Origin: Nesterenkonia sp. E16_10
Lineage (GTDB): Bacteria > Actinomycetota > Actinomycetes > Actinomycetales > Micrococcaceae
DNA: 64,000 nucleotides
Assembly: GCF_017347085.1 (NCBI RefSeq)
Contig: NZ_JADPSA010000001.1
Location: forward strand, 62,001-126,000
Direction of reading: 5' to 3'
Both the position numbers and the translations under genes were made by a program. Below the pieces are notes generated by a model. It made no database searches. It saw nothing but the letters and a program-made list of their open reading frames with translations, and was not told the DNA's origin. Below, in pieces: positions 10,764 through 50,993 of the stretch (position 1 is the first letter of the stretch; every line of letters begins with the position of its first letter).

Positions 10764-10924
10764 GATCAGCCTGACGGGGCACCATCCGGCACCGCGACGA
10801 CGGTTGGCCACTCCCAAGGCGTGCGACAGATCTCGGCTCGTCGAGCACCCCGGAAGCACCGGGAGTCTCTGGACGGGTCTGTGCTGATAAACCGAATCCA
10901 CACCACGCAAAGGAGAGTACTGAC

Positions 10925-11221
10925 GTGTCAGTCTCTATCAAGCCTCTCGAGGATCGCATCGTTGTTCGCCCCCTGGAAGCAGAGCAGACCACCGCTTCCG
11001 GGCTGGTCATCCCCGACACCGCGAAGGAGAAGCCCCAGGAGGGCAAGGTCATCGCGGTGGGCCCAGGTCGCTTCGACGAAAAGGGCAAGCGCATCCCGGT
11101 TGACGTCTCCGAGGGCGACGTCGTCATCTACTCCAAGTTCGGCGGCACCGAGGTCAAGGTCAGCGGCGAGGAGTACCTCGTGCTCAACGCTCGCGATGTC
11201 CTGGCCATCATCGAGAAGTAA
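10925..11221 (+). CDS. groS: Co-chaperonin GroES
   Basis: This 98-residue protein has the GroES family start [10 protein letters not shown], a mobile loop ([23 protein letters not shown] at about 18-40) and the closing [12 protein letters not shown]. Seven copies form the lid on the GroEL ring and help release folded protein in the cytosol. The GTG start has AAGGAG about seven bases upstream. It is the first gene of the groES-groEL operon behind the CIRCE-controlled promoter; groEL follows after 73 bases. Confidence 0.97.
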
Positions 11222-11291
11222 GAACGGACCACTGAAGGTTCTTCACGGACCCGATCACGATCCGATTCTCACACTCTCAAAGGAGCACTAA

Positions 11292-12890
<1,599 letters not shown>

Positions 12891-44807: not shown

Positions 44808-46220
44808 CTACTTGGCGGCCTCGGTGTAGAGCGACTTCTTCGAGGTCTCCGGGGCCAGGATCAGCGCGATCAGCGTCAGCACGCCCAGGCCGGCCAGGTA
44901 GAGCCCGACCGCTCCGACGCCGAAGGCCTGGACGAGCCAGGCCGCCACGAAGGGGGTCAGCGCCGCGCCCAGGATGGAGGCGGCGTTATAGGCCACGCCC
45001 GATCCGGTGTAGCGGGTGTTCGTGGGGAACAGCTCCGGCAGCACCGCGGACATCGGTCCGAAGGTGAGCCCCATCAGGGTCATGCCGACGGCGAGGAAGG
45101 CCAGCATCTGCCAGACGTTGAGGTCCTCCCCCGTGCCCATGGAGTCTGCGGAGAGCCAGTAGCGGAAGCTCAGTCCGAAGGCCATGATCGCCAGGGTGAC
45201 CACGATCAGCATCGGGCGGCGGCCGAAGCGGTCGGCCAGTCGGCCGGCCACCGGGACGAAGATCGCGAAGAAGGTGATCGCGATGATCTGCAGCACCAGG
45301 AAGTCCTGGTACCCGTAGCTCAGCCCGCCGACCTCGGCGCTGCCGATGGCGTAGGAGAGCACCCAGGTGGTCATCAGGTAGAACAGTCCGTAGGTGGCCA
45401 GCATGATGAAGGTGCCCAGGATGATCTCCCACCAGTTGCGCCGGAAGACCTCCCCGATGGGGGCCTTGACCCGCTCGTTGCTGGCCATGGCCTTGGCGAA
45501 GACCGGGGTCTCCTCGATCCGGAGCCGGACATAGAGTCCGACGGCGACCATGATCACCGAGAGCAGGAACGGCAGGCGCCAGCCCCAGACCAGGAACGGG
45601 TCGTTGAGGTCGCGTGCCGTGGAGTCGTAGGCGAACAGGGTGGCCAGCAGCAGGAAGAGCCCGTTGGCGAGCATGAAGCCGAAGGGGGCACCCAGCTGTG
45701 GCCACATGGCCGCCTGCGCTCGCTTGCCCGGCCGGGCGGTCTCGGAGGCCAGCAGCGCGGCACCGGACCATTCGCCGCCCAGGCCGAGGCCCTGGCAGAA
45801 ACGCAGGATGGTCAGCATCGCCGGCGCCCAGAGCCCGACCTGGTGATAGGTGGGCAGCGCGCCGATCAGGAAGGTGGCGATGCCCATGGTCAGCAGCGCA
45901 CCCACCAGGGTGGCCTTGCGCCCGATCTTGTCCCCATAGTGGCCGAAGATGATGGCACCCAGCGGCCGGGCCACGAAGGCCGCACCAAAGGTGGCCATCG
46001 AGGCCAGCAGCGCGGAACCCTCATCGCCGTAGAAGAAGAGCAGCGGGAAGATCGACACGGCCGCGGTGGCGTAGATATAGAAGTCGTAGAACTCGATCGT
46101 GGTCCCGATCAGCGAGGCCATGATGATCCGGCGGCGCGGGACTGTCAGGTTCTCATCCGCCACGCCGTCGACTTTTCGTTTCGAGGCGCCGGGCGCTGAG
46201 GGGTCAACAGAGGTAGACAT
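44808..46220 (-). CDS. MFS transporter, metabolite:H+ symporter (MHS) type
   Basis: This 470-residue protein has twelve predicted helices and the MHS/ProP-like signatures: GTTIEFYDFYIYATAA, GHYGDKIGRKATL between helices 2 and 3, RFCQGLGLGGEWSGAALL in helix 5, and RLADRFGRRPMLIV in the second half. Family members import dicarboxylates, shikimate, proline/betaine or similar solutes with H+. The first 28 residues are polar. The solute cannot be told from sequence. It lies after the mtlR terminator and does not appear to belong to the mannitol operon. Confidence 0.9.
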   Translation of the reverse strand: MSTSVDPSAPGASKRKVDGVADENLTVPRRRIIMASLIGTTIEFYDFYIYATAAVSIFPLLFFYGDEGSALLASMATFGAAFVARPLGAIIFGHYGDKIGRKATLVGALLTMGIATFLIGALPTYHQVGLWAPAMLTILRFCQGLGLGGEWSGAALLASETARPGKRAQAAMWPQLGAPFGFMLANGLFLLLATLFAYDSTARDLNDPFLVWGWRLPFLLSVIMVAVGLYVRLRIEETPVFAKAMASNERVKAPIGEVFRRNWWEIILGTFIMLATYGLFYLMTTWVLSYAIGSAEVGGLSYGYQDFLVLQIIAITFFAIFVPVAGRLADRFGRRPMLIVVTLAIMAFGLSFRYWLSADSMGTGEDLNVWQMLAFLAVGMTLMGLTFGPMSAVLPELFPTNTRYTGSGVAYNAASILGAALTPFVAAWLVQAFGVGAVGLYLAGLGVLTLIALILAPETSKKSLYTEAAK

Positions 46221-46717
46221 TGCTGGGCATCTCCACAGAAGGGTTGATGGTGAGCGGCGCCGAGTGCGGCGCAGACCAGAAATGATAGGTCGGGGCCAGG
46301 AGCGTGCTGTACCCGGGTCACGGCAGTCTCAGCAGTTGAGACTTCAGGGACATCTCCCGGGGCCCGACCTACAACGAAGAGCGGTGCGAATTCACCGATT
46401 CGCCCGCAGCTTCCTCAGTAAATCTAGAGTTCGGTATTGCAAAGGACGCACCACCGTGAAGGCACCTCAGGCGCTGGTCGAACCGTGGATTTGGGCGAAG
46501 GTAAATTGTAGTTTCGGGGACTCCAGGCCGCGCCTGAAGAGCGTAGCTGCCAACCAAGTTGTGCGGCAGAAGTAGGTGAACCTTCAGGGTGCGCGGCCAT
46601 CGAAGCGATCTTAGAAAGCTCCAAGCGCCTAAGCTGTACCAAATATTCATGAGCAAGGTAGTGATCGGCGCCATTCCTGTCGCGCTACCACAATGCGCAT
46701 TCGACTAGGAGGCTTAC
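46221..46717. other. Gene-free region before the helicase gene
   Basis: These 497 bases contain no convincing gene. The left 140 bases have host-like composition; from about 46360 the DNA is noticeably less GC-rich, like the helicase gene that follows. Short open frames here lack ribosome sites and family resemblance. The right end has AGGAGG at 46707-46712 for the helicase ATG. It may hold a promoter or the edge of an acquired segment. I found no tRNA or repeat marking the boundary. Confidence 0.6.
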
Positions 46718-49700
46718 ATGTCCGGCACCGAAGCGCATGGAATCGTTCTGACAGACGAATTTAGAACGGCGCTTTCACTGCTTGAGCAGGGTGAAAGTAT
46801 TTTCCTCACCGGAAAGGCCGGCACGGGCAAATCAACGTTGATCCGAGAGTTTCTCTCTCTAACTGCACGGACAGCGATAGTCGCCGCACCAACCGGAATC
46901 GCCGCACTGAATGTCAACGGATACACGATTCACCGTTTATTTTCGTTCTGGCCTGGTGTGACTGTCGAGCACGTCCGTTCAGATGCCTACTACCCGAAAA
47001 GGTTCGGACGAGTCCTTTCGAAGATCGACACACTGGTTATTGATGAGGCATCGATGGTCCGTGCCGACCTTTTCGATTGCCTGACGACTGCGCTTGAGCG
47101 CTTCGGCCCACGTCCAGGGGAACGTTTCGGTGGCGTCCAGGTAGTGCTTGTGGGCGACCTATTTCAGCTACCTCCAGTAGTAGTGGAAGCGGAGGAGCAT
47201 TACTTCTCTGAGGTCTACGACTCGCCCTTCTTCTTCTCTGCTCGGAGCTACGAAGAGCATCGGTTCCCGGTTGTAGAGCTGACCACGGTCTTCAGACAAG
47301 TCGGCGATACACAGTTGGTCGACATACTTAATTCCGTCCGGAACGGATCTCTCGGCGACTACGAGCGGCAGGTGCTCAATCAAAGAGTGAATCCCTCGTT
47401 CGACCCACCGCTTGACGAATACTGGCTGACTCTCACCACTACGAATCGGATCGCGACTGCTCGGAACAAGGCAATGCTTGATCAGATCAGAGCGGAGACG
47501 TCGACCAGTTACGCCGTGATCACCGGCGAGCTGGATGGGTTCGACATTCCCACTGACGAGACGCTTGAGTTCAAGGTCGGGACCCAGGTAATGCTTCTGA
47601 CCAATGATGGCGCAGATCGTTGGGTCAACGGCAGCATCGGCAAGATCGTGGAAGTCTTCGATGACACGGATGACCCCTCCATCTCTGTTCAACTAAACGA
47701 CGGAAACACGGTTCGTGTGGAGCGACATGTCTGGGAAGTCACTCGACCTGTCGTAAACGGAAGTCGCCTCCAGCACGAGGTGGTGGGCTCGTTTACTCAG
47801 CTGCCCTTTCGACTTGCCTGGGCCATCACGATCCACAAGAGCCAGGGACAGACTCTAGACCAATGCCGTGTGGACCTATCGGGCGGCATCTTCGCTGACG
47901 GACAACTGTATGTAGCACTAAGCCGATGCACCTCTCTGAACGGACTCGTCCTGGCCCGAGCCGTGGAACCTAAACACCTTCGGGTCAATCAACGGATCCG
48001 TCGGTTCCTCGATACGGGCGGTCGATTGACGGGATCAAAAGGAGGAGCGTATCTAGGCGTGTCCCTCGTAGGAGATGTCGGTCGACAGTGGAAGCCCAGG
48101 ATCGTAGAGCTTGCCGTCGTGACCGATGACGGACAAGAAGCCACGACCCTGGTGGCCCCGGGCCGTGATGTGGGAGATTCTCAGCAACGGTACGGAATCA
48201 CGGCAACAGATGTGCATCTGGCTCCAACTCTGCATGAGGCTTGGAACGCGCTTTCTCCGCTGCTGGAAGGCAGGACTCCGGTTGGCGTCCGTATCGATGA
48301 GACCCTCGAGTACATCGACTTCGAACTTAAGCGCGGCGGGCTGGTCACCCACATCCCCGTGGGAGATGACGTCGCAGAGCTGATTTCCGAAGCAGCCGGC
48401 GCCAATTTCGAGTCGCTTCCGGCCATCGAGAAGGCGAGATCTGTTCGAGAGTTGGCCCTCGAAAATGGGGTCGCTTCCTCCTCAGATGTGTTCACCCCAG
48501 CGAAGCACACACCCGGTTTTCTCAAGGGTCGCGATCGAAGTTCTACCGGCATCGACTTCAGAGTCCGGTGTTCTCCTTCCGAGAACCCAGTGCAAGTTCT
48601 CGCCGAGCTCCTCAGCGAGCGGCCCCACCTGGCACACAGCGGCGTGCCCGACAGTGTCGAGATCCTCCGACAGCTTCAGGACGAGTCTGGCGTTGTCCTT
48701 GCGGCTGGTCTACACGAGGACGCACCCGACATTCGAATCGCGGACGTGTTGCAGCCAGGGGTACGGGTTTGCTTCACGGGTTCGGCCACGGATCGTGAGG
48801 GGAGGAAGATCCCCCGCGATGATCTAGAGGCGCAAGCTTCCTCAAGGGGCTTGGAAGCAGTAGATACCGTCACGAAAACCCGCTGCGACGTACTCGTAGT
48901 TGCCGAACGAGGAACCCAATCGGGCAAAGCGCGGCAAGCAGGTAAATTCGGGAAGCCGATCTTCACGGTTGACGAGTTCATCGACTGGCTCGAGGGAAAC
49001 GTCGTCCCCCGTGAGAGACCAGCCGAAGGCAAGGCACAATTCACTATCGAACGGATATCAACCACAGAGGCGGAACCAAAGGACATCGCTCAGGTCCTCA
49101 CCGGGGCTAGCGATCGCGTCGCCAACGAACGCCACTCCCCCGAACGAGACCGCATCACCGAATCCGAAGGAAGACCAGGAGCGCCGAACTCATTCAAGCA
49201 GGACGCAGTAGAGACGTATGAGGCACTTACGGCGAACGTCCAGAGACGTGAGCCTTTCGCCGTGGCTTACACAGATTCGAACCTAGATGAACTCCTCAGC
49301 CCAGGTTCAATAATCGCGTTCTCGGGAATCATCACCTCTCCCCGAACCGGACAGAGACTCACGCGCCCGGAGTTGGCAGGGCTCGTAGAACCAAGGGGAC
49401 TCGTCGTAGATACTGCAGTAACCAAGGCAAGGACGAGCGTCCTCATTCACGTCGGTGCCAACCCTGACTCGGTCCAGGTGAGGGCAGCGGTCAAGTACGG
49501 AAAACCCATCGTTCCAGTGGGCGCCTTCTTCGCTTGGCTGGACCTCGCTGAACCGGCTTCGCACCCTCAGGGAGCTGACTGGAAGTCGGGCTCAGACCAG
49601 GGTGAAGCACCCCTTGCGCCTCGGTCTTCGGCGCCGCAAGTCCCGACAGACTCCCAGTTGATCGACTCCACCTCTTCGTTGCCAACATCTACCCATGACC

Positions 49701-50005
49701 ACAGGCACCTGACGCCAAGCAGTAGGAACTTCGACGAGGCGGCGCGGACTGAACCTTGTGAGTCGGACGACTCTTCTGCCCCGAAACCGCACCGGCCTGC
49801 TCCGCGGTTCCATCTGAAGATGCTTGGACTTCTGCTCGCTCTCCTGGTTGCTCTGCCGTTCGTAGGTGCACTTATCGCCATCTCAGTTCCAGCGGTTGAC
49901 ACCGTGATGGCGGTGCTAGTATTCGCGTCCTTTCTGGCAGGGGCGCTTCTCATTCCCATATGGATAGTTATAGCTATCAGACGCTTGCGAAGAAGTCGTC
50001 GATAG
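46718..50005 (+). CDS. Pif1-like helicase fused to two BRCT domains and a membrane anchor
   Basis: This 1095-residue protein starts at an ATG with a perfect AGGAGG five bases upstream. Residues 1-435 form a Pif1/RecD-type SF1B helicase: Walker A FLTGKAGTGKST (29-40), Walker B TLVIDEASMV, VLVGDLFQLPPV (143-154), then AITIHKSQGQTLD and LYVALSRCTSLNGL. Residues 445-560 look like a worn DnaQ-type exonuclease fold lacking the first Asp-x-Glu. Two BRCT-like domains follow (about 681-760 and 863-943), each opening with a CFTGSATD- or AFSGIITS-type strand. After a polar linker come two hydrophobic helices (about 1035-1057 and 1061-1087) with a basic tail. The DNA is less GC-rich than the neighbours. 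No partner genes adjoin it. The whole arrangement is unknown to me. Confidence 0.85.
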   Translation: MSGTEAHGIVLTDEFRTALSLLEQGESIFLTGKAGTGKSTLIREFLSLTARTAIVAAPTGIAALNVNGYTIHRLFSFWPGVTVEHVRSDAYYPKRFGRVLSKIDTLVIDEASMVRADLFDCLTTALERFGPRPGERFGGVQVVLVGDLFQLPPVVVEAEEHYFSEVYDSPFFFSARSYEEHRFPVVELTTVFRQVGDTQLVDILNSVRNGSLGDYERQVLNQRVNPSFDPPLDEYWLTLTTTNRIATARNKAMLDQIRAETSTSYAVITGELDGFDIPTDETLEFKVGTQVMLLTNDGADRWVNGSIGKIVEVFDDTDDPSISVQLNDGNTVRVERHVWEVTRPVVNGSRLQHEVVGSFTQLPFRLAWAITIHKSQGQTLDQCRVDLSGGIFADGQLYVALSRCTSLNGLVLARAVEPKHLRVNQRIRRFLDTGGRLTGSKGGAYLGVSLVGDVGRQWKPRIVELAVVTDDGQEATTLVAPGRDVGDSQQRYGITATDVHLAPTLHEAWNALSPLLEGRTPVGVRIDETLEYIDFELKRGGLVTHIPVGDDVAELISEAAGANFESLPAIEKARSVRELALENGVASSSDVFTPAKHTPGFLKGRDRSSTGIDFRVRCSPSENPVQVLAELLSERPHLAHSGVPDSVEILRQLQDESGVVLAAGLHEDAPDIRIADVLQPGVRVCFTGSATDREGRKIPRDDLEAQASSRGLEAVDTVTKTRCDVLVVAERGTQSGKARQAGKFGKPIFTVDEFIDWLEGNVVPRERPAEGKAQFTIERISTTEAEPKDIAQVLTGASDRVANERHSPERDRITESEGRPGAPNSFKQDAVETYEALTANVQRREPFAVAYTDSNLDELLSPGSIIAFSGIITSPRTGQRLTRPELAGLVEPRGLVVDTAVTKARTSVLIHVGANPDSVQVRAAVKYGKPIVPVGAFFAWLDLAEPASHPQGADWKSGSDQGEAPLAPRSSAPQVPTDSQLIDSTSSLPTSTHDHRHLTPSSRNFDEAARTEPCESDDSSAPKPHRPAPRFHLKMLGLLLALLVALPFVGALIAISVPAVDTVMAVLVFASFLAGALLIPIWIVIAIRRLRRSRR

Positions 50006-50222
50006 TGAATGCAGGGTCAATCGACCGCAGCACGGGAAGGAACCCGTCCTCGTAGGGCGGGGTAGGTAGGCCGGCGGTCTGACTCCGACTACCCTCACAG
50101 GGGCATAGCTGCGTCCGAAGGGCAACAGCAACTTCGTTGACTTGTGATGCCTCGATCAACGCCAGTCAGCCGCGGCGAAAAGGAAATCCTAGCTCTGTCG
50201 AGTCTTGGTCGCCCACGGAGGC
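50006..50222. other. Gap between the helicase and siderophore ATPase genes
   Basis: These 217 bases lie between convergent genes. I see no gene, no clear terminator and no attachment-like repeat. Composition moves back toward that of the host genes. Confidence 0.5.
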
Positions 50223-50993
50223 TCAGTAATACACCGCCAGCGGCCCGCGAGGACCCTCGATCACCGTGACCTCGGTGTCGAAGACCCGGGTCAGCACCGC
50301 ATCCTGCATGATCTCCGCCGGTGTTCCGTGCTCGATGACCACGCCGTCCTTCATCGCCAGGATCTTGTCCGAGTAGCGGGCGGCGAAGTTGATGTCATGC
50401 AGCACGATCACCACGGTGCGGCCCAGCTCGTCGGCGGCGCGGCGCAGCTGCTGCATCATCTGCACCGCGTGCTGCATGTCCAAGTTGTTCAGCGGCTCAT
50501 CGAGCAGCACATAGTCGGTGTCCTGGGCCAGCACCATGGCCACATAGGCCCGCTGACGCTGACCACCCGAGAGCTGATCCAGGTAGCGGCCCTCCAGCGC
50601 GGTGAGGTCCAGGAAATCGATGGCCTCGGAGATGTGCCGCTCGTCCTGGAGGGTGAGCCGGCCCCGGGAGTGTGGGAACCGGCCGAAGCCCACCAGCTGA
50701 CGCACCGTGAGCCGGGTGACGAAGTGGTTCTCCTGGCGCAGGATGGAGAGAATCTTCGCGATGGTCTTCGAGGGCGAGCTCACAACGTCATGCCCGGCCA
50801 CCTCGATCCGCCCGGAGTCCACATCGAGCAGCCGCCCGATCATGGTCAGGATGGTGGACTTTCCGGCACCGTTGGGACCCACCAGGGCGGTGATGCCGCC
50901 GGCGGCGATGTCCACGCTGACCGGGCCGATGGCCACGGTGTCGCTGGCCCCTTCTGTGCCGTAGTTCTTGGCGACCTCGGTGAGGCTGATCAC
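50223..50993 (-). CDS. Iron-siderophore ABC transporter ATP-binding protein
   Basis: This 256-residue ATPase powers import by the two permeases next to it. It has Walker A GPNGAGKST, the Q-loop near LRQENHFVTRL, the signature QLSGGQRQRAYVAMVLAQ, Walker B YVLLDEPLNNLD and the H-loop VLHDINFAARYSDKI. It belongs to the FecE/BtuD-like group; the YclP-type Bacillus transporter is a close analogue in arrangement. Its start overlaps the end of the upstream permease by four bases (ATGA). It is the last gene of the operon. Confidence 0.94.
   Translation of the reverse strand: MISLTEVAKNYGTEGASDTVAIGPVSVDIAAGGITALVGPNGAGKSTILTMIGRLLDVDSGRIEVAGHDVVSSPSKTIAKILSILRQENHFVTRLTVRQLVGFGRFPHSRGRLTLQDERHISEAIDFLDLTALEGRYLDQLSGGQRQRAYVAMVLAQDTDYVLLDEPLNNLDMQHAVQMMQQLRRAADELGRTVVIVLHDINFAARYSDKILAMKDGVVIEHGTPAEIMQDAVLTRVFDTEVTVIEGPRGPLAVYY

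Follow-up and report, generated by a model that had tools for sequence, protein, structure and literature searches.

A Pif1 helicase with a degenerate exonuclease fold, BRCT domains and a predicted membrane hairpin on a low-GC insert in Nesterenkonia

Described systems closest to the protein

Pif1 enzymes are known chiefly from replication and genome stability, their roles in bacteria being less known, and the bacterial enzymes comprise the helicase core with either limited ends or a C-terminal WYL domain; BRCT domains are not mentioned in the part of that source considered here (PMC9964779). The protein described in the following is encoded in a window of 64,000 nucleotides (the whole stretch of DNA that was analysed) from Nesterenkonia sp. 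E16_10. It shares helicase core, fold, and motifs with bacterial Pif1 (8bns, 8bnx, 5ftb) but adds an exonuclease fold, two BRCT domains, and a hydrophobic hairpin after the core, and no WYL domain was matched in it by Pfam. A DEDDh-fold domain is likewise joined to a DNA helicase in DinG with a 3′–5′ exonuclease (8zef); in contrast, the DinG helicase belongs to SF2 and its exonuclease is reported active, with no mention of BRCT in the part of the source considered (PMC12345164). The closest solved BRCT by profile is that of RFC1, itself a part of a clamp loader, and the isolated RFC1 BRCT binds recessed 5′-phosphate DNA ends according to the excerpt used (PMC9293004).

In SNIPE, a variable transmembrane part tethers a DNA-acting protein to the inner membrane, as the hairpin is predicted to do here, but SNIPE is distinguished by a single N-terminal transmembrane segment, a DUF4041 domain, and a GIY-YIG nuclease that cuts, the portion of the source at hand making no mention of a helicase (PMC13190303). 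Neither DUF4041 nor GIY-YIG gave a Pfam match in the window protein at E ≤ 1. The PADLOC candidate PDC-S48, for whose profile PADLOC sets no cut-off, matches the window protein in three stretches covering its exonuclease and BRCT parts (E 5.7e-32) and the relative L021 at E 3.6e-91. Judged by these match positions, PDC-S48 would combine DEDDh and BRCT domains; it is itself only a candidate, and its name was not found in a literature search. We infer that PDC-S48 needs intact DEDDh catalytic residues, which are present in L021 and L379 and absent from the window protein; the latter has a dead exonuclease and carries a Pif1 helicase.

Domain architecture

The coding sequence (46718..50005, forward strand, 1095 residues, from the list of open reading frames) is preceded by AGGAGG at 46707..46712 on the same strand, a probable ribosome-binding site read from the sequence five nucleotides before the ATG. 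A Pif1 SF1B helicase core at residues 9–431 (46742..48010, forward strand) is recognized by Pfam PIF1 (E 1.2e-24, 87.5 bits against a curated cut-off of 25.9), by a PDB sequence match to 8bns (E 2.2e-109), and by Foldseek, which returns the Pif1 fold of the same structure (E 2.7e-44, TMt 0.90). The patterns of helicase motifs I, II, III, and VI occur in all 65 rows of an alignment chosen from 95 loci, so that the complete SF1B motif set claimed in an earlier, sequence-only reading is borne out. By sequence and modelled fold, the protein is a complete Pif1 helicase, for which ATP-dependent 5′→3′ unwinding is predicted. Identity as RecD2 was rejected at 81 bits against an NCBIfam equivalog cut-off of 500.

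The middle of the protein (about residues 440–600; 48035..48517, forward strand), placed by profile and Foldseek, folds as DnaQ (8h18, E 2.5e-5, TMt 0.67), matches intact DEDDh exonucleases by profile (probability score 95.7), and also matches the DinG structure 8zef. The catalytic positions D1, E, and D2 are acidic in only 1, 1, and 4 of the 65 rows, respectively, in agreement with the degenerate nuclease-like middle proposed before. Sequence and model alike indicate a DnaQ/DEDDh exonuclease fold whose active site is lost, and on alignment the family as a whole keeps this fold without the active site.

BRCT1, common to the family, spans residues 676–762 (48743..49003, forward strand; profiles and structure model), and BRCT2 residues 853–945 (49274..49552, forward strand; BRCT1 matches of other loci and modelled fold). 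Pfam BRCT gave no match to the protein at E 1, and a single-sequence structure search found no BRCT structure. The family profile matches the RFC1 BRCT (2ebu, 2k6g; E 0.005), NCBIfam PRK06063 matches residues 677–764, BRCT2 matches BRCT1 of 25 other loci (E ≤ 4e-4), and both domains are modelled with confidence, which upholds the earlier assignment of two BRCT-like domains. Among the 95 loci, BRCT2 is otherwise found only in a Corynebacterium hylobatis protein. A recent internal duplication was rejected, BRCT2 being 36% identical to BRCT1 and no closer to it than to BRCT1s of other species.

A disordered Pro/Ser/Thr-rich linker (residues 946–1030; 49553..49807, forward strand; pLDDT < 50, composition) leads to two predicted membrane helices on the same strand, at residues 1030–1056 (49805..49885) and 1058–1087 (49889..49978), each placed by hydropathy, a model helix, and the module designated A2. 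Hydropathy over 19 residues peaks at 2.72 and 2.57 here, compared with at most 1.51 before residue 1000. The model places helices at 1030–1056 and 1058–1094 with moderate confidence (pLDDT mostly 64–83). The protein ends in AIRRLRRSRR with a net charge of +6, the basic tail RRLRRSRR lying at 49979..50002 (forward strand; composition). The C-terminus is therefore, as the first reading had it, a predicted two-helix membrane hairpin with a basic tail.

A lone gene on an insert and its scattered family

The gene lies on a foreign insert of about 3.87 kb (46343..50216), delimited by comparison with genome G019 (L362), whose site is empty: homology to the window extends up to 46342 and resumes from 50217, with 27 bp between the two ends. 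In relatives, the site is either empty or occupied by other cargo. Outside the insert lie, to the left, an MFS transporter gene (44808..46220, reverse strand), which adjoins the ABC gene in insert-free relatives, and, to the right, a siderophore-type ABC ATPase gene (50223..50993, reverse strand; comparison with relatives), both named by eye. At a GC content of 0.577, the insert is the lowest 3.9-kb stretch in the 64-kb window (100-base steps), and GC3 of the gene is 0.616 compared with 0.86–0.93 in five neighbour genes. No other gene is evident on the insert, so that both the lower GC content relative to the neighbours and the lack of a partner gene, as originally noted, hold. A scan of promoters and terminators gave no signal exceeding shuffled sequences. 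In a tree, the window protein stands apart from the other Nesterenkonia homologues (AU p 2.7e-7), and horizontal acquisition is therefore probable; as far as sequence comparison goes, this is probably an accessory gene on a foreign insert.

The Pif1, pseudo-exonuclease, and BRCT core defines, by sequence, a family scattered over Actinomycetota; a single-protein query over genome contigs found nothing, and its members were found by an alignment-based scan. Members of a sister clade carry an intact DEDDh exonuclease in addition, and L021 and L247 also an Lsr2 DNA-binding domain. A viral origin was rejected: the best 80 of 368 IMG/VR relatives all match the helicase core alone (query residues 1–447). 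The one long match in a phage collection, MT835623 (53% identity) looks like bacterial DNA, its neighbour gene also occurring in the bacterial locus L323. A plasmid home was likewise rejected, since only 286 of 72,556 plasmid records match and none covers 80% of the query at a single site. This also bears on a role in DNA uptake, conjugation, or plasmid control, in which the protein would handle single strands crossing the membrane and aid or block establishment. Such a role fits a helicase with a predicted anchor and a weak profile similarity to the helicase domains of relaxases (TraA), but no relaxase, T4SS, or competence gene adjoins the locus (by eye, 42–56 kb) or recurs among homologues, and we consider it very improbable.

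The surroundings of the homologues are mixed. Most family members seen lie among ordinary genes, some next to genes read by eye that we take to be LigD (L065, L069, L072), LigA (L070), and XseA (L316, L334). Among hand-picked genes, judged without a background rate, a PD-T4-5-like gene lies 30 nt upstream in L058, a CAP12 TIR gene about 400 bp from L379, and NERD and McrB-like genes no more than about 4 kb from L078, while L093 has an Mrr/ResIII restriction gene at a distance of about 50 bp; next to the window copy, L062, and L064, no defence gene was seen by eye. No gene family keeps a fixed place across genera among the neighbours of the 95 loci, and the earlier caveat of a constant housekeeping context does not apply. 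A housekeeping operon was rejected, since members of the widest neighbour cluster (17 of 95 loci) occur on either strand and at distances of up to 6 kb on both sides, and clusters of steady place do not extend beyond one or two sets of related genomes.

The main rival to a defence function is an accessory genome-maintenance helicase that would load at nicks, gaps, and broken ends via BRCT and unwind flaps or G-quadruplexes, the membrane-bound copy of this strain serving DNA at membrane-proximal replication or segregation machinery. We regard this as a real possibility, well short of an even chance. The putative LigD, LigA, and XseA neighbours speak for it, as does the occurrence of the family in many species of few genera. 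So do the principal setting of Pif1 enzymes (PMC9964779) and the proximity of the BRCT profile to the RFC1 domain that binds recessed 5′-phosphate DNA (PMC9293004), both as given in the parts of the sources considered. Against it, no match to the protein was found in 20 of the 30 Nesterenkonia genomes (two of the 20 being less than 85% complete), the gene is foreign-looking, low in GC, and lone in this strain, no operon is shared, and tailed or close kin have PD-T4-5, TIR, and restriction-type neighbours.

The hairpin module and possible functions

Only three of the 95 loci carry the hydrophobic tail in the same protein: the window, one of another genus (L062), and one Corynebacterium, whose version probably arose separately. 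Since 92 loci show no tail (L067, L313, and L322 among them with broken frames), an anchor does not characterize the family. The hairpin recurs, however, in a gene of its own that lies 12 nt upstream of the Pif1-pseudo-exonuclease-BRCT gene in L064 and at the end of DEDDh-exonuclease-BRCT-type proteins (L078, L379) in defence-like surroundings, and is thus no one-off. The earlier caveat that homologues might lack the helices therefore applies to nearly all loci and yet not to the hairpin as such. A hairpin profile built from six rows matched 10 of the 290 genomes of the family, that of the window among them. Seven of these matches are strong, of which six are rows of the profile itself and one, G183 (L379), is new. 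In a 228-genome sample of the order, only one other match, a weak one, was found, so that the hairpin is not a generic transmembrane signal. By appearance, the weak matches G159 (L079) and G250 (L382) are membrane proteins without relation to the module.

At the recX-miaB site of another genus, which is also the place of the L062 fusion, there are free-standing small ORFs of a related two-helix type. For one such pair (L076 and L077), dN/dS is 0.22 over 103 codons, indicating constraint and disfavouring dead remnants; other comparisons gave 0.26–0.63 or saturation. Because these ORFs stand alone at that site, the tail was perhaps picked up by chance, and the helices might form a soluble oligomerisation hairpin or be a fusion by-product, the protein then acting like its cytosolic kin. 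The rarity of the tail and the moderate model confidence are consistent with this; the hydropathy peaks and basic tail, the reuse of the module, both in DEDDh-BRCT-type proteins and in a gene of its own, and the constraint on the stand-alone pair argue against it and make it improbable. A further speculation, which we consider rather doubtful, is that Actinomycetota possess modular DNA-end effectors that form a class of their own, are tethered to the membrane, and watch it for incoming DNA ends. One anchor would be combined, in one protein or two genes, with an intact DEDDh-BRCT unit or a Pif1-pseudo-exonuclease-BRCT unit, an arrangement that is equally doubtful. That the window protein would, within such a class, work by its helicase and not by a nuclease is put forward with the same reserve.

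The best explanation, tentative and only a little short of an even chance, is a single-gene defence in which a self-contained, probably horizontally acquired variant of the family, tethered to the membrane, would work as a DNA-end helicase on incoming DNA. The hairpin would hold the protein on the inner side of the membrane, with both hairpin ends presumably cytosolic because the tail is basic, and the flexible linker of about 80 residues would give the enzyme part reach. The BRCT domains may dock on DNA ends, as the isolated RFC1 domain does, while the Pif1 part would travel 5′→3′ and unwind; the dead exonuclease fold may grip the end or single-stranded DNA, or regulate, without cutting. The likeliest target would be phage or plasmid DNA reaching the membrane with free ends, amounting to an entry defence of the SNIPE type by unwinding instead of cutting.

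Several observations touch on this defence reading. In its favour are the lone-gene insert, the origin outside the genus, the reused hairpin, the defence-type neighbours, the PDC-S48 match, and the sister clade with intact DEDDh. On the other side, most kin lie among ordinary genes, some beside ligD, ligA, or xseA look-alikes, the protein has no recognizable active nuclease, 92 of 95 loci lack the tail, no defence gene adjoins the window copy, L062, or L064 (by eye), and PDC-S48 is only a candidate.

A widespread actinobacterial family, of which a literature search found no description, is hereby marked out, and its two-helix module may be used to find further membrane-bound DNA enzymes. If the membrane-tethered defence helicase is real, a helicase held at the membrane would act in a new manner on DNA as it enters, and the idea of entry defence, known from the nuclease SNIPE, would come to include unwinding machines.

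Domain composition and the degenerate exonuclease fold

The window protein is encoded in a single frame of 1095 residues (46718–50005, + strand) preceded by AGGAGG, and is classed solely as a Pif1-family helicase. A Pfam search returned PIF1 (87.5 bits against a cut-off of 25.9) together with overlapping P-loop families; neither BRCT nor exonuclease families were among the matches. A sequence search against solved structures matched the bacterial Pif1 8bns (E 2.2e-109), and the modelled helicase resembles Pif1 structures in Foldseek. An AlphaFold2 model computed from a selection of 65 family members (mean pLDDT 81.7, pTM 0.72) places the helicase at residues 10–435, followed by a second folded unit, BRCT1 at about 674–760, BRCT2 at 853–945 and, at moderate confidence, two C-terminal helices, with disorder at 785–849 and 946–1030.

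When residues 436–768 were modelled separately (61 rows, mean pLDDT 91.6), a structure search ranked DnaQ/DEDDh exonucleases at the top (8h18, E 2.5e-5, TMt 0.67), with further matches to DinG (8zef) and Pol III epsilon and, at rank 50, to the RFC1 BRCT 2ebu (E 0.01). The domain alone retrieved nothing at E 1 in a PDB sequence-profile search; an intact DEDDh profile aligns with the profile of this pseudo-exonuclease at a probability of 95.7 over 88 columns. The places of the catalytic D and E were assigned by eye to the first strand, and that of the second D comes from the profile-profile alignment; acidic residues occupy these three positions in 1/65, 1/65 and 4/65 rows, respectively. At the Asp place of the HxxxxD motif, a region assigned by eye, 48 of 65 rows have arginine and 2 a gap, and the window protein has lysine. 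Across the rows examined, the fold is thus retained and the active site lost.

Single-sequence searches found no BRCT structure for either BRCT1 or BRCT2; a profile covering both matches the BRCT of RFC1 (E 0.005). The isolated RFC1 domain is reported to bind recessed 5′-phosphate DNA tightly (PMC9293004), and the BRCTs of the window protein might do likewise.

The C-terminal hairpin and its relatives

Hydropathy of the window tail peaks at residues 1037–1055 (2.72) and 1067–1085 (2.57), all 19-residue windows before residue 1000 staying at or below 1.51, and the chain terminates in AIRRLRRSRR. By the positive-inside rule, a guide to membrane topology, both ends of the predicted hairpin would face the cytosol. 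In a single-sequence search the tail matched genomes G120, where it is likewise fused (locus L062), G201, G252, G264 and G296. The hairpin of G264 (L064) is a separate 103-aa ORF that stops 12 nt before the Pif1 gene, and that of G296 (L078) forms the end of an exonuclease-BRCT-type protein, whose BRCT we recognized by eye. A hairpin profile built from six sequences found matches in 10 of 290 genomes, 7 of them at E ≤ 1e-20; six of these seven are the profile's own rows, and the seventh, G183, encodes another DEDDh protein with the hairpin and LigA-type BRCT matches (L379). In an order sample of 228 genomes, one other match only was obtained, a weak one.

Small stand-alone two-helix ORFs were detected in G201 and G252 and, weakly, in G245 and G136, lying between genes that we take by eye to be recX and miaB. 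As the L062 fusion occupies this same site, the tail may have originated from a small membrane gene resident there. The two-helix membrane ORFs at this site, of one genus, lie at L076:9378-9713, L077:9732-10043, L380:6468-6764 and L381:6757-7080; for one pair of them, dN/dS is 0.22. Separately, the DEDDh exonuclease-BRCT-type proteins at L379:6582-8195 and L078:4238-5830 end in the same predicted membrane hairpin and have intact-looking catalytic motifs; they are candidates for a membrane-bound exonuclease defence in their own right.

Distribution, ancestry and insertion site

Within the genus, 10 of 30 genomes encode homologues of the window protein. At family level, 21 of 295 genomes hold matches at E ≤ 1e-100 and 40 any match at 1e-3; at order level, 48 of 396 hold matches at E ≤ 1e-170 and 114 at 1e-20, those beyond the 48 being helicase-only or fragments (family and order counts tallied from listed rows; own genome included at all three levels). 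Hosts among the best 80 of 494 relatives include Leucobacter, Mycolicibacter, Mycobacterium, Dietzia, Actinomycetaceae, Pilimelia, Trueperella and Corynebacterium hylobatis; past the first nine of these 80, the listed matches stop in the helicase.

The hydrophobic tail is present in 3 of 95 loci, namely the window, L062 and L093. The last, from C. hylobatis, combines Pif1, pseudo-exonuclease, two BRCTs and a hydrophobic hairpin, with no detectable similarity of its tail to the hairpin module, and its BRCT2, unlike that of the window protein, is closest to its own BRCT1 (46%). The four-part plan therefore probably arose twice; L093 is also a very long branch in the tree. No description of this architecture was found in the titles and abstract starts of the literature searched.

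An N-terminal DEDDh motif was found by pattern in 7 of the 95 loci, which form one clade (support 100). In L021 and L247, those checked with Pfam, RNase_T and an N-terminal Lsr2-type DNA-binding domain (Lsr2_DNA-bd) were confirmed. The N-termini of L021 and L323–L327 mark a Pif1-family clade with an intact-looking DEDDh exonuclease in addition to the pseudo-exonuclease, so that live and dead exonuclease folds share one chain. L021 is MT835623, an entry of a phage collection labelled Bacteriophage sp.; its Pif1 gene and adjacent epimerase-type gene also occur in the bacterial stretch L323, and MT835623 is probably bacterial DNA.

In a tree of 91 cores, the window protein and L062, from another genus, form a pair (SH-aLRT 98); both are long branches that drew a tool warning, and L058 and L064 of a third genus come next (88). 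Grouping it with its nine genus-mates was rejected (lnL difference 124.8, p-AU 2.7e-7, 36 rows), in a test that constrained the genus and was run once the first tree was known. The gene has a GC3 of 0.616, compared with 0.864–0.926 for five neighbours, and no 3.9-kb stretch of the window is lower in GC than the insert.

Of the 30 genomes of the genus (own included), 20 carry the flanking MFS-type gene and 28 the flanking ABC-ATPase gene. By coordinates, the two lie less than 250 bp apart, in the same order and on the same strands, in eight genomes (G010, G011, G012, G014, G017, G019, G026 and G028). Against G019, which has the empty site, homology of the window ends at 46342 and restarts at 50217. 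G024, G020 and G004 share nearly the same left boundary (46343–46367), followed by other cargo, so that the insertion spot is variable; in G004 its two sides fall on two contigs. The other cargo includes a BrkB-type membrane protein (Pfam, L354) and, as named by eye, a TetR-type regulator and stress-type genes. Cargo between the MFS and ABC genes of close relatives (L354, L355, L363/L364) outlines a small hotspot of changing content.

Gene neighbourhoods and prospective function

The neighbours of the window gene, L062 and L064 look ordinary by eye. L058 carries a PD-T4-5-like gene (10861–11556), recognized by PADLOC at E 7.3e-12 and matching nothing in Pfam or NCBIfam; it lies 30 nt upstream of the Pif1 gene, at the position held by the separate hairpin gene in the sister locus L064. 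A CAP12 TIR gene lies about 400 bp from L379; L093 has a Mrr/ResIII restriction gene about 50 bp away and an adjoining Fic gene; and around L078 a NERD gene and a McrB-like gene lie at distances of about 1 kb and about 4 kb, respectively. In the wider family, ten hand-picked neighbour proteins place Fic/Doc or antitoxin genes by five loci (L086, L087, L306, L325 and L344), all such neighbour statements describing chosen genes. Other neighbours there were taken by eye to be LigD, LigA, XseA, GuaB and GroEL. The tailless members L065, L069, L072, L070, L316 and L334 adjoin genes that by eye resemble ligD, ligA and xseA, a hint that the cytosolic forms may be connected with DNA repair.

Two known systems invite comparison. 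The likeness to the membrane-bound nuclease SNIPE (PMC13190303) is one of working, SNIPE's domains being absent from the window protein. Kin resembling PDC-S48, a PADLOC candidate system for which no paper was found in the literature searched, possess an intact nuclease, whereas the window protein does not. In sum, the evidence favours a mobile DNA-end helicase that is predicted to be tied to the membrane, with defence against entering DNA as its likeliest single role and DNA repair close behind.
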